DNA of 60,894 bases from Lachnospiraceae bacterium. Its GTDB lineage: Bacteria; Bacillota; Clostridia; Lachnospirales; Lachnospiraceae. The translations under genes and the position numbers were made by a program. Below are positions 13,907-60,894 of the stretch, in pieces. How positions within the stretch are numbered: the first letter of the stretch is position 1; the number at the start of each line of letters is the position of its first letter. The notes beneath the pieces were generated by a model. It was not told the origin of the DNA, did not search any database, and worked only from the letters and a program-made list of their open reading frames with translations. The DNA lies in contig JAFTVH010000134.1 in assembly GCA_017465845.1 (NCBI GenBank), positions 1-60,894 on the forward strand, read 5' to 3'.

Positions 13907-13938
13907 GCGTGTTACTCCAAAAGCGTGTTACTCCAAAA
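13907..13938. repeat. 16-bp tandem duplication at glycerophosphodiesterase stop
   Basis: GCGTGTTACTCCAAAA occurs twice head to tail (13907-13922 and 13923-13938). The second copy contains the stop codon and last codons of the glycerophosphodiesterase gene, so the first copy is a non-coding duplicate of that gene end. Confidence 0.85.
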
Positions 13939-15179: not shown

Positions 15180-15345
15180 GTGAACTACCCATTGTCTAAA
15201 GCCAATGGGCTTCCTGCTTCGTCGACCTCGCTTCTTCGTTCCACTCGGGTCCGAGCAGAACAGATGTCCACTGGACATCTTGCTCCCTACTATCTCCACA
15301 GGCGTTTATTCGGGCAGTTCCTGCCCTATTGCTTTCTTGTTTTAC
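15180..15345 (-). ncRNA. Probable TnpB guide (omega) RNA region
   Basis: Between the tnpB stop and the element's right end, the minus strand folds densely: GGGCAG/CTGCCC (15312-15326), AGATGTCC with GGACATCT (15262-15280), CTCGG/CCGAG (15244-15255) and the terminal hairpin 15188-15209. TnpB proteins are known to use a structured RNA made from this position, with the guide derived from DNA just past the right end. Location and folding fit; processing and exact ends are inferred. Confidence 0.5.
15188..15209. repeat. Right-end hairpin of IS200/IS605 element
   Basis: CCCATT (15188-15193) pairs with AATGGG (15204-15209) around GTCTAAAGCC. The same core occurs in the left-end hairpin, as expected for TnpA recognition sites. 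Confidence 0.8.
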
Positions 15346-16445
15346 GCTATCTGACGTAATCCTTCTGCTAAGATATTCTTTGCTGCATTTACATCCCTGT
15401 CATGCATTGTCCCACATTTCGGACATACCCATTCTCTTACAGACAGGTTTTTCGTTTCTTTGTTCTGATATCCACATTCGGAGCATATCTGGCTGCTGGC
15501 ATAAAATGTATCTATCCTGATATATTCCCTTTCATTCCATTTCGCCTTATATTCCAACTGCCTCGTCAGCTCATGCCAGGATACATCCGCTATTCCCTTC
15601 GCCAGATGATGATTTTTTATCATGTTCTTTATCTGCAGATTCTCTGAAACTATCACTTGGTTTTCGCTGATAATTTCGTTGGATATCTGATGCAGATTGT
15701 TTTTCCTGATATTCCTTATCTTCTCATGGCATACGGCTATCTGCTTTTTTGTTTTATAATAATTTTTGCTCCTCTTTTCTTTATGCGCCAGTTTTCTTTG
15801 CAACCTTGCAAGTTTCTTATCGTATCTGCTTAACGTCCTGGGATTCTCATATTTCCTGCCCTCCGAGGTTACACACAGATCCTTAATTCCAAGATCCAGT
15901 CCCATTTTCCCTTCTGCTTCCGCCATTGGTATGTGTTCCGTTTCCACTAAAACAGATACATAATATTTCCCACTTGGCTCCTGCGATACTGTTGCTGATT
16001 TTATCTGCCCGCAAAACTCCCTGTGCAGCTTCGCCTTTATCTGTTTTAATTTGGGTAACTTAATCTTTCCTGACGCAAAATCCACACCAATGTTTCCGTT
16101 CGTATAATTCGTTGTATAGGATCTGTGGTTATCATGTCGGCTCTTAAATTTCGGATATCCTGCGTGCTCTCTGAAAAAATTCTGATATGCGCAGTCCATG
16201 TTATATATGGCATTCGTGAGCGCAAATTTATCTACTTCCTTCAGCCATTCATATCTTGCTTTTAATTCCCTGTTACAGTAATTATTGCAGTCCGTTCTGC
16301 TCACGGACTTCTTTTCGTTTTCGTAAGTTTCTTTCCGGTAGAAAAGCGTTTGATTATATACAAAACGACAGCAGCCGAACGTTTTCGCCAGCAGTTCTTC
16401 CTGCGCTTTATTTGGATAAACGCGGTATTTATATGCTTTCAGCAT
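15342..16445 (-). CDS. tnpB: TnpB RNA-guided nuclease of IS200/IS605 element
   Basis: The 367-aa protein has an N-terminal wedge-like HTH region ([18 protein letters not shown]) and a C-terminal split RuvC nuclease. The three catalytic acids are present: D184 in [10 protein letters not shown]268 in VIVSENLQI, and D351 in [11 protein letters not shown]. The zinc ribbon has Cys 321, 324, 341 and 344 (CSECG, CPKCG). TnpB cuts DNA guided by an RNA encoded at the element's right end and helps retain the element after transposition. The ATG at 16445 lies 17 bp after the tnpA stop. All catalytic residues are intact. Confidence 0.95.
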
Positions 16446-16462
16446 TTTCTTCCATCACCTTC

Positions 16463-16867
16463 TTATCCTTGATTTTCTATGTATCTCTTCAGCATCTCTT
16501 CGGAAACATTGCCCACACTGCACGCAAAATATCCATCCGTCCAAAAGGTATGTTCTTTCCAGAAATGTTTCCGCAGATAGACCGGATGTCGCTCCCATAT
16601 GTGATAAGTTGTATAACTCTTCATCAGATTTACGATCTTGCTCACAGACATTGTCGGTTCTGTTTCTATCATGTAATGTATATGATCCTTATCTGTCTCC
16701 ATGTATTTAATGATCACGTGATGTTTTTGGCATATCTCATAAGAAAGTTGTTTTATATCATCCGATATCTGCTCTGATACAAGTAGCTTCTTTCTGTATT
16801 TACACACAAAAATAATATGATACTGTAATAAATATTTGTGTCTGTTTTTTGCTTTCCATGTCTTCAT
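16463..16867 (-). CDS. tnpA: IS200/IS605 transposase TnpA (HUH type)
   Basis: The 134-aa protein is a Y1 HUH transposase. The metal-binding pair is H62 and H64 in DHIHYMIE, and the expected nucleophile is Tyr129 in EEMLKRYIENQ. Other family landmarks are YHIIFVCKYRKK and FWKEHTFWTDGYFACSVGN. It cuts and joins single-stranded ends at the element's hairpins. The length is normal and no frameshift is seen. A TATACT-like -10 sequence overlaps the region just upstream of the ATG; no strong ribosome site is visible, which is common for these weakly expressed genes. Confidence 0.95.
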   Translation of the reverse strand: MKTWKAKNRHKYLLQYHIIFVCKYRKKLLVSEQISDDIKQLSYEICQKHHVIIKYMETDKDHIHYMIETEPTMSVSKIVNLMKSYTTYHIWERHPVYLRKHFWKEHTFWTDGYFACSVGNVSEEMLKRYIENQG

Positions 16868-24138: not shown

Positions 24139-24489
24139 GTCTTTCTGTTCCTTTCTCGCTAATATCCTTTATTATATAATACATTAACCGGGAGCGCCAC
24201 ATTTTTGTTATCGTTCTTTATAAAAGATTTAGACATAACTGTTTACAGGCTATTTGGTATTGGTATCCATTTAGAATGCTGCCGGAGTTCCTGCTGTGAG
24301 GCAGATCGCCTTTCATGCTACCAAGGAAAATCGCTGAGTTGGATGTATTGTTGCCATTTGAACATATACAGATTTTTGTGTCTGTTATTCCCAATCTAAG
24401 CAGGGAATATCCCTTATTTGGCTGTTGGCTGACTCGATTCCGGGCAGAACAACGTAAAAAGGGGGCTTTCTTGGCTATGGGTATATATA
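24139..24489. other. Intergenic stretch without recognised gene
   Basis: Apart from the peptidase ribosome site and probable promoter near 24150-24220, I see no convincing coding frame, hairpin or known motif here. Short open frames lack ribosome sites. Confidence 0.5.
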
Positions 24490-24870
24490 CATGACATTGA
24501 TTTGTGGGCTGAATAAAGTCTTGAAACGGATAAAAACTGGAAAAATGGTATTTTTATCCGATGACATTGCTATAAATTGGGCATTTTCAGCAGATAAAAC
24601 TAGAAAAAATGAAGTTTTTATCCGTTGGTATCTCTGTAAAATGGTGATTTTCGTCAGATAAAACTGGGAAAAATAGAGTTTTTATCCGCTGGCATCTCTG
24701 TAAAATGGTGATTTTCGTCAGATAAAACTGGGAAAAATAGAGTTTTTATCCGTTGATATCGCTTTAAAATGGTGATTTTCAGCAGATGAAACTGGGTAAA
24801 ATAGAGTTTTTATACGTTGGTATCACTTAAAATATTGGTTTTCGGCGTATAAAACTCGAAAAAATAATGT
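24490..24870 (+). repeat. 64-bp hairpin repeat array 1
   Basis: Units start at 24528, 24592, 24656, 24720 and 24784 (exact 64-bp steps), with a partial unit at 24847. Each begins with GGATAAAACT or AGATAAAACT, has an A-rich loop, then AGTTTTTATCCG, so each can form a GATAAAA/TTTTATC hairpin. A spacer of the form TTGGTATC-CTGTAAAATGGTGATTTTC follows. The left flank ACATGACATTGATTTGTG matches that of array 2. The last unit is degraded and the right border is unclear. Confidence 0.9.
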
Positions 24871-30235: not shown

Positions 30236-30285
30236 CTGTATTCCGGACTAACTGCATCTGTGCACTATACACCATACAATAAACA

Positions 30286-30338
30286 CGACCATGTAATATA
30301 CATGACCATGTTAATATACCTGGCCATCTAATATATAG
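30286..30338. repeat. Three 17-18 bp imperfect tandem repeats
   Basis: Units GACCATGTAATATACA, TGACCATGTTAATATACC and TGGCCATCTAATATATAG follow one another between mntP and its terminator. They look like a small, diverging minisatellite. Confidence 0.6.
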
Positions 30339-60059: not shown

Positions 60060-60109
60060 ATTTCCTCCATTCTTTTTCCCGAGGGGAAGAGGTATGGGAC
60101 TAAGTCACG

Positions 60110-60250
60110 CTGTGGTGGGGAGGATAGGGCATGGATTCGGGCACGCTCTCGCTCTGTGAAAAACGTAGCGGACGCTAAGCTCGAAAAGACCTCGCTAAGC
60201 GCCGACGTTTTTCAAAGGCCTGAACCCATGCCCTATCCTCCCCTCCACAG
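60110..60250 (-). promoter_or_regulatory. Large hairpin in purA leader
   Basis: Arms 60110-60142 and 60218-60250 pair over 33 bp with three mismatches (core GGGGAGGATAGGGCATGG), and an inner perfect GAAAAACGT/ACGTTTTTC stem (60158-60166 with 60205-60213) sits inside. The 141-nt structure lies about 50 bp before purA, within its probable leader. No known purine riboswitch consensus is seen. Confidence 0.65.
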
Positions 60251-60349
60251 CTGTCTTACCGCATATTTCTGGTCGGGAAAAATAATTGACTCAATTTAAT
60301 ATAAATTTGGTGGGTTATTGTGTGGGCAGCACTTGCTGTCCACGCAAGT

Positions 60350-60378
60350 ATTATACTACAGGTTTTGGTATAAGTAAA
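60350..60378 (-). promoter_or_regulatory. Candidate purA promoter
   Basis: On the minus strand TTTACT (60373-60378), a 17-bp spacer and TATAAT (60350-60355) would start a transcript near 60344, giving a leader of about 285 nt that includes a hairpin at 60322-60343 (GTGGACAGC/GCTGCCCAC) and the large hairpin. Confidence 0.55.
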
Positions 60379-60455
60379 ATCAATATGTGTTATGTTTTCC
60401 ATAATTTTTTATTATTATTCAATCTTTTCTTGGAATATAGTATGACTGAACTTTT

Positions 60456-60894
60456 GGGTGTACAGGACATTGATTTGTGAGCACTAAAGTGTTCTGAGGC
60501 GGATAGAACTAGAAAAAATAAAGCTTTTATCCGTTGGCATCGCTCTAAAGTGGGCGTTTTGGACAGATAAAACTGGAGAAAATGAAGCTTTTATCCGTTG
60601 GTATCGCTCTAAAGTGGACGTTTTCGACGGATAAAACTAGAAAAAATGAAGCTTTTATCCGTTGGCATCGCTCTAAAGTGGACGTTTTCGGCGGATAAAA
60701 CTGGAAAAAATAAAGCTTTTATCCGTTGGTATCGCTCTAAAGTTGGCGTTTTCGACGGATAAAACTGGAGAAAATGAAACTTTTATCTGTTGGCATCGCT
60801 CTAAAGAGGGCGTTTTCGACGGATAAAACTGGAAAAAGTAGAGCTTTTATCCGTTGGCATCGCTCTAAAATGTAATTTATCGTCATGTACACCC
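60456..60894 (+). repeat. 64-bp hairpin repeat array 2 with terminal inverted repeats
   Basis: Six units start at 60501, 60565, 60629, 60693, 60757 and 60821, exact 64-bp steps. Each has GGATAAAACTGGA, an A-rich loop, AAGCTTTTATCCG (a GGATAAAA/TTTTATCC stem) and a tail TTGGCATCGCTCTAAAG-TGGACGTTTTCG. The array is bordered by GGGTGTACAGGAC (60456-60468) and GTCATGTACACCC (60882-60894), inverted with one mismatch. The window ends at the right border, so the repeat could extend further. Confidence 0.9.

Follow-up and report, generated by a model that had tools for sequence, protein, structure and literature searches.

The tandem hairpin array next to purA at the end of a Lachnospiraceae contig probably belongs to a non-autonomous interspersed repeat that behaves like a miniature inverted-repeat transposon (MITE). 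From sequence comparison, we read the family as an old, species-restricted, non-autonomous mobile repeat which is MITE-like in its working. This reading draws on 14 dispersed copies, inverted ends in part of them, unit ranks that match within a subgroup, 64-bp steps and absence from the relatives searched. Counting against it, both inner ends are visible at only six of the 14 loci and are lacking at four, and rank matching outside the subgroup is weak; no movement was observed.

The window, i.e. the whole stretch of DNA analysed, is the complete contig C112 (60,894 nucleotides) of a 201-contig, 4.19-Mb genome that is 85% complete and comes from a gut bacterium of the Lachnospiraceae near Acetatifactor. 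Two copies lie within it, with the following features:

60430..60455, + strand: putative eroded outer left end TTGGAATATAGTATGACTGAACTTTT, without the GGTTCTTTC of other copies (judged by eye, boundary approximate)
60456..60468, + strand: left inner part of the terminal inverted repeat, GGGTGTACAGGAC (sequence comparison)
60469..60495, + strand: left subterminal segment ATTGATTTGTGAGCACTAAAGTGTTCT, common to the copies on C165 and C70
60496..60869, + strand: array of six 64-bp palindromic units (Tandem Repeats Finder, nhmmer, covariance model)
60882..60894, - strand: inner part of the right terminal inverted repeat (GTCATGTACACCC on the + strand), at the contig end, with its outer part beyond the assembly
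24466..24866, + strand: second copy, with left end and six unit matches (the last one partial), right inner end not seen

The six units of the purA-proximal array start at 60496, 60560, 60624, 60688, 60752 and 60816, at the steps of exactly 64 bp that were originally predicted, and Tandem Repeats Finder assigned a period of 64 with 89% matches and 0% indels to 60500-60869. The repeats had also been called exact, which holds for the period and not for the letters, the 64-base windows being 80-92% identical. Similarly, the hairpin GGATAAAA/TTTTATCC attributed to each unit is perfect in three of the six (60624, 60688 and 60816), the other three carrying one changed position. The 13-bp inverted ends were recovered as described, with 12 of 13 letters matching between 60456-60468 and 60882-60894, a match that was equalled by 1 of 1000 base shuffles of the two end stretches. 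The 64-bp units are contiguous and lack unique spacers, in agreement with the earlier statement that this is not a CRISPR array. C112 stops at 60894, the last base of the right end, and the right flank and the outer right end thus lie beyond the assembly. Other short tandem repeats in the window are found at 13907-13938 and 30278-30335 (periods 16 and 17).

A DNA search of the genome with the 439-base block returned 16 matches corresponding to 14 loci on 12 contigs, and units were called with nhmmer and a covariance model. The unit, which the original prediction had proposed to look for elsewhere in the genome, was matched by nhmmer 6, 6, 6, 7, 8, 6, 6, 6, 6, 5, 7, 9, 3 and 1 times per locus (82 matches in total including truncated ones), two copies being reduced to three units and one unit. 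The covariance model gave 78 matches up to E 1, all within the 14 array loci; 150 of 4630 first-look candidates were scored, so that weak single units outside these loci could be missed. The 78 matches run head to tail, the exceptions being an inverted unit at C167 and a single weak match on the opposite strand. Five copies were measurable between GGTTCTTTC ends: they are non-coding and 431-630 bp long, with five to eight palindromic units of 64 bp in tandem and ends that add about 100 bp. Their length rises with unit count at 64.1 bp per unit (r 0.98, constant 104 bp). As expected of MITEs, the family thus consists of multiple dispersed copies of a short non-coding element. An ORF of at least 100 codons was called mechanically on both sides of the array at 13 of the 14 loci within the sequence examined, the window copy at the contig end having only its left neighbour, purA; ORFs listed across the arrays have at most 124 codons. 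Among ten neighbouring ORFs, nine had a Pfam match; two encode AraC-type regulators and the rest have no family in common.

The inverted ends are longer than first noted, reading roughly TTTGGACATATACAG-N8-9-GGTTCTTTCTGAACTTTGGGTGTACATGAC, and they flank arrays at other loci too. Aligned left ends and reversed right ends have GGTTCTTTCTGAACTTTGGGTGTACATGAC or variants of it in common, and in six left ends the TTTGG of the outer TTTGGACATAT starts 23-24 bp before GGTTC (counted by eye). The 25-base inner end GGTTCTTTCTKRACTWTGGGTRTAC was found at nine genome sites at up to 3 mismatches (0 for a reversed control), all nine at array loci, of which C77, C139 and C177 have both ends and C167, C70 and C165 have one. 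If one adds C107, C167:1534-2113 and the window copy, whose ends are more changed, both inner ends are visible at 6 of the 14 loci, which bears out the expectation that ends and arrays occur together and gives these copies the common terminal inverted repeats of MITEs. At C167:1534-2113 the inverted end extends into the first hairpin. The inner end was looked for at all 14 loci and was seen at none of C6, C167:10237, C21 and C119; at C167:10237 the outer motif adjoins the array. This outer motif, TTTGGACATATRCAG, has 39 sites in the home genome versus 6 for the reversed control, and the highest count listed among other genomes of the genus was 11 sites (G086). Repeats of roughly 90 and 260 bp that lack a palindrome array are bordered by it as well, so it could mark either the extreme end of a larger family or a site at which insertion is preferred. 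Since the outer TTTGGACATATACAG part also bounds other repeats, the true terminus is uncertain.

By eye, a second dispersed palindrome family with TTTGGACATATRCAG ends comes in sizes of about 41, 77, 90 and 260 bp, the forms being nested in one another (e.g. C83:564-826, C53:2744-2916, C36:4269-4358 and C157:16556-16632), and it also forms inverted pairs about 90 bp long. A copy of this family precedes the second window array at 24357-24480, and the far side of that array ends like the other end of the same family (by eye), which suggests a nested insertion.

The history of the arrays was addressed by comparing unit ranks between the 12 loci for which at least five units were aligned (all 66 pairs), whereas an earlier look had covered eleven chosen pairs. 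First units were reciprocal best matches in 22 of the 66 pairs (permuted orders: mean 6.6, maximum 17 in 120), and last units in 8, about the level of permuted first units. The signal is concentrated in a subgroup of seven loci (C139, C107, C112:24488, C175, C77, C177 and C167:1658), where 17 of 21 pairs had reciprocal best first units and 8 of 21 had reciprocal best second units; at C139, C107, C112:24488 and C77 both first and second units matched in 6 of 6 pairs. Between C107 and C77, identities were 89% for the first units, 94% for the second and 81% for the last, compared to 55-62% for first versus interior units. Outside the subgroup rank matching is weak, and the window copy is 89% identical to that of C165 over 414 bases without clear rank matching. 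Together with the length increase of 64.1 bp per unit, the rank-matched first units of the subgroup indicate that arrays were copied whole and that units were gained or lost thereafter. We read the arrays, on these comparisons, as having probably moved with their ends before losing or gaining units, which is best seen for the seven-locus subgroup. One unit of C167:10237 is identical to one of C175 over 47 bases, so arrays were also reshuffled. The C175 array looks like a chimera, the early unit being the one identical to C167:10237 and the last unit being closest to C112:24488 units. Adjacent units are alike within loci, as in the two identical 62-base units at C77. This likeness and the weak rank matching elsewhere are what would be expected if the arrays had arisen independently by local slippage from a common short seed, an explanation that is contradicted for the subgroup by its rank-matched first units and common ends, and which we find hardly conceivable for the family.

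The nearest purA proteins (95%, 95% and 93%) belong to an uncultured Acetatifactor and two deer-gut Lachnospiraceae genomes, and purA DNA identity to relatives is at most 83% among the matches listed. No arrays were found in 137 other genomes of the genus, with up to 4 candidates scored per genome. At E 0.001 the unit search matched 4 of 138 genus genomes, namely the home genome and three with weak single stretches; a separate search of 60 relatives (up to 11 candidates scored) gave four weak matches. With the covariance model, 3 of 299 sampled family genomes matched (20 candidates scored each), i.e. the home genome and weak single matches in G189 and G344. The weak matches in G018, G027, G039, G048 and G115 were discarded, each being a lone stretch of 29-41 bp that has neither another unit nor an end within 130 bp of it. 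The purA flanks (up to 1.5 kb) of 80 named relatives contained no unit below E 0.25. Neither genome_contigs nor viral_contigs (home genome left out) matched a strict degenerate unit pattern that recovers 10 of the 14 loci and 28 of the 81 units in the home genome, and the array DNA had no match in phages and plasmids. The original prediction had counted absence from relatives against its own idea; we take it as pointing to a species-restricted family. Upstream of purA, a block at 60349-60415 is partly kept in at least 25 of the 80 loci (many only over 60369-60415), and the inner left end of the window array begins about 40 bp beyond it. A promoter-like site lies at 60378-60350, and between a promoter-like site and the purA start there is a 34-bp inverted repeat (60109-60251, 91%, arms 75 bp apart), where three relatives' purA leaders have a shorter stretch.

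A structured multi-hairpin RNA had been offered as the alternative to a mobile unit, and of the two it is mobility that emerged as the best reading from the 14 loci and their ends. Stem tests were performed on 75 of the 82 unit matches after truncated ones had been dropped, and entropies were calculated over 81 units. In the 12-pair stem 85.4% of cells pair compared to 35-56% with the partner slid, so the palindrome is real. Shuffling the stem partners gave 86.9% pairing, and double changes, with both sides of a pair altered, were seen in 2 cells versus 11.9 in shuffles, i.e. the compensatory changes typical of structured RNA fall below the shuffled controls. Among the mismatches of the nine core pairs, G-T (40) and A-C (34) point to neither strand. 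The three outer pairs have an excess of G-T over A-C (60 to 26), to which a single pair with G-T in 39 of 75 units contributes most; unless common ancestry alone explains it, this excess would argue for a + strand RNA. On the same side, the window array folds at -146.7 kcal/mol as + strand RNA (z -8.4), compared to z -4.5 for the - strand and z -4.3 for + strand DNA, with 0 of 100 shuffles as low in each case; the + strand fold is one long foldback through the array, which is possible for any palindrome array. Rfam gave no match in the window, no terminator-like site was found and promoter-like sites were as frequent as in shuffles. An RNA hairpin function is poorly supported, and we consider a structured RNA very improbable. 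The palindrome arms are the best-conserved part of the unit (mean entropy 0.31, versus 0.86 in the loop and 0.80 in the spacer), with 0 of 61 circular shifts as low, and the same result was obtained for A/T and G/C columns alone. Such strongly conserved arms without compensation fit a palindromic site read as DNA sequence, which is a clear prediction.

Target duplications, another proposed check, were not found. At the inner ends of five loci, flank strings shared within a locus were 2-6 letters long versus 2-7 between loci, and at the outer ends of two loci the same-locus strings were likewise similar to the between-locus ones; the target site duplication of MITEs is accordingly not seen in these comparisons, the copies being old and their terminus uncertain. 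The string AAAAAAATCG, seen by eye on both sides of the C165 array, was not counted as a duplication in view of its simplicity and of the truncated right end of that copy. A transposase gene with the ends of the array family (GGTTCTTTCTGAAC) was sought in the genome and not found, and a 91-base query outside the array loci hit the outer motif and chance-level pieces only. In this 85%-complete, 201-contig assembly the inner-end pattern occurs at array loci only, i.e. not as the ends of an autonomous element. We take GGTTCTTTC to resemble the ends of ISL3 elements; an ISL3-type partner was rejected, the single match being a fragment at the edge of C7 with no such end downstream in 900 of 1696 bases. 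Because target duplications and a partner transposase were tested for and not found, we do not file the family as a MITE. If the MITE-like reading is correct, a transposase recognising the inverted ends would mobilise the copies in trans, its gene having been lost or left out of the assembly, slippage or unequal recombination would add and remove units, and the conserved arms would serve not as an RNA hairpin but as a DNA site recognised by a protein, perhaps the same transposase.

A tentative and rather unlikely form of this reading is a mobile element whose body is a variable-length array of palindromic DNA-binding sites with arms under selection; every insertion would then plant a ready-made multi-site landing pad between genes, either for its own transposase or for a host protein. 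It is unlikely that the family is instead of the REP/BIME/REPIN type, in which single-strand hairpins are moved by a Y1 (RAYT) transposase and tandem arrays are secondary. The units are palindromic, array-forming and found in one species, as would be expected, and tandem REP arrays, evenly spaced and with two almost identical at distant places, are described for P. fluorescens SBW25 (PMC3116915, in excerpt). The second hairpin family of this genome forms inverted pairs, and one Y1 transposase gene lies within the window. This gene, the only Y1 match of the genome, however adjoins a TnpB-like gene in an IS200/IS605-type pair (15342-16837) with no array unit beside it, the units run head to tail rather than alternating, and none was found outside the 14 loci among the candidates scored. 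Quite unlikely, in our view, are arrays of palindromic protein-binding sites that were spread by recombination and are retained for a role in the host, for instance nucleoid organisation or regulation. The arms CGGATAAAA/TTTTATCCG, whose sequence is far better conserved than the rest and shows no compensation, and the position of the arrays between ORFs agree with such a role, but the absence from the other genus genomes searched, the two copies that are down to three and one units and the neighbouring ORFs, of which only the two AraC-type regulators share a family, speak against it.

The MITE-like reading can be set beside known systems. ERIC and NEMIS are named as MITEs, i.e. bacterial non-autonomous DNA transposons (PMC3116915, in excerpt). 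The array family is likewise short, non-coding, dispersed and equipped with inverted ends, whereas its body consists of palindromes in tandem, in varying number, and a duplication or partner transposase was not found. REPs usually exceed 100 copies per genome. REP-type palindromes are also able to form evenly spaced tandem arrays (PMC3116915, in excerpt); within BIMEs the orientation alternates, and REPs flank RAYT genes (PMC2817692, in excerpt). The array family differs in having 78 matches that nearly all point the same way and in sharing inverted ends among some of its copies; outside the arrays no unit turned up among the 150 of 4630 candidates scored, and no RAYT adjoins a unit. In the foldback transposons of eukaryotes (FB/Galileo), the whole element folds back and internal tandem repeats make up the inverted ends; foldback of the entire element and tandem repeats inside are shared features, with the difference that the repeats of the array family lie between the ends. 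A literature search over titles and abstract openings found no description of a tandem palindrome array with shared inverted ends. Tandem hairpin arrays as such are already known from the REP arrays of P. fluorescens, and the shared inverted ends are the unusual part: here a tandem array with defined borders has apparently been passed on and moved as one piece, and distant loci of a subgroup still agree in unit rank.
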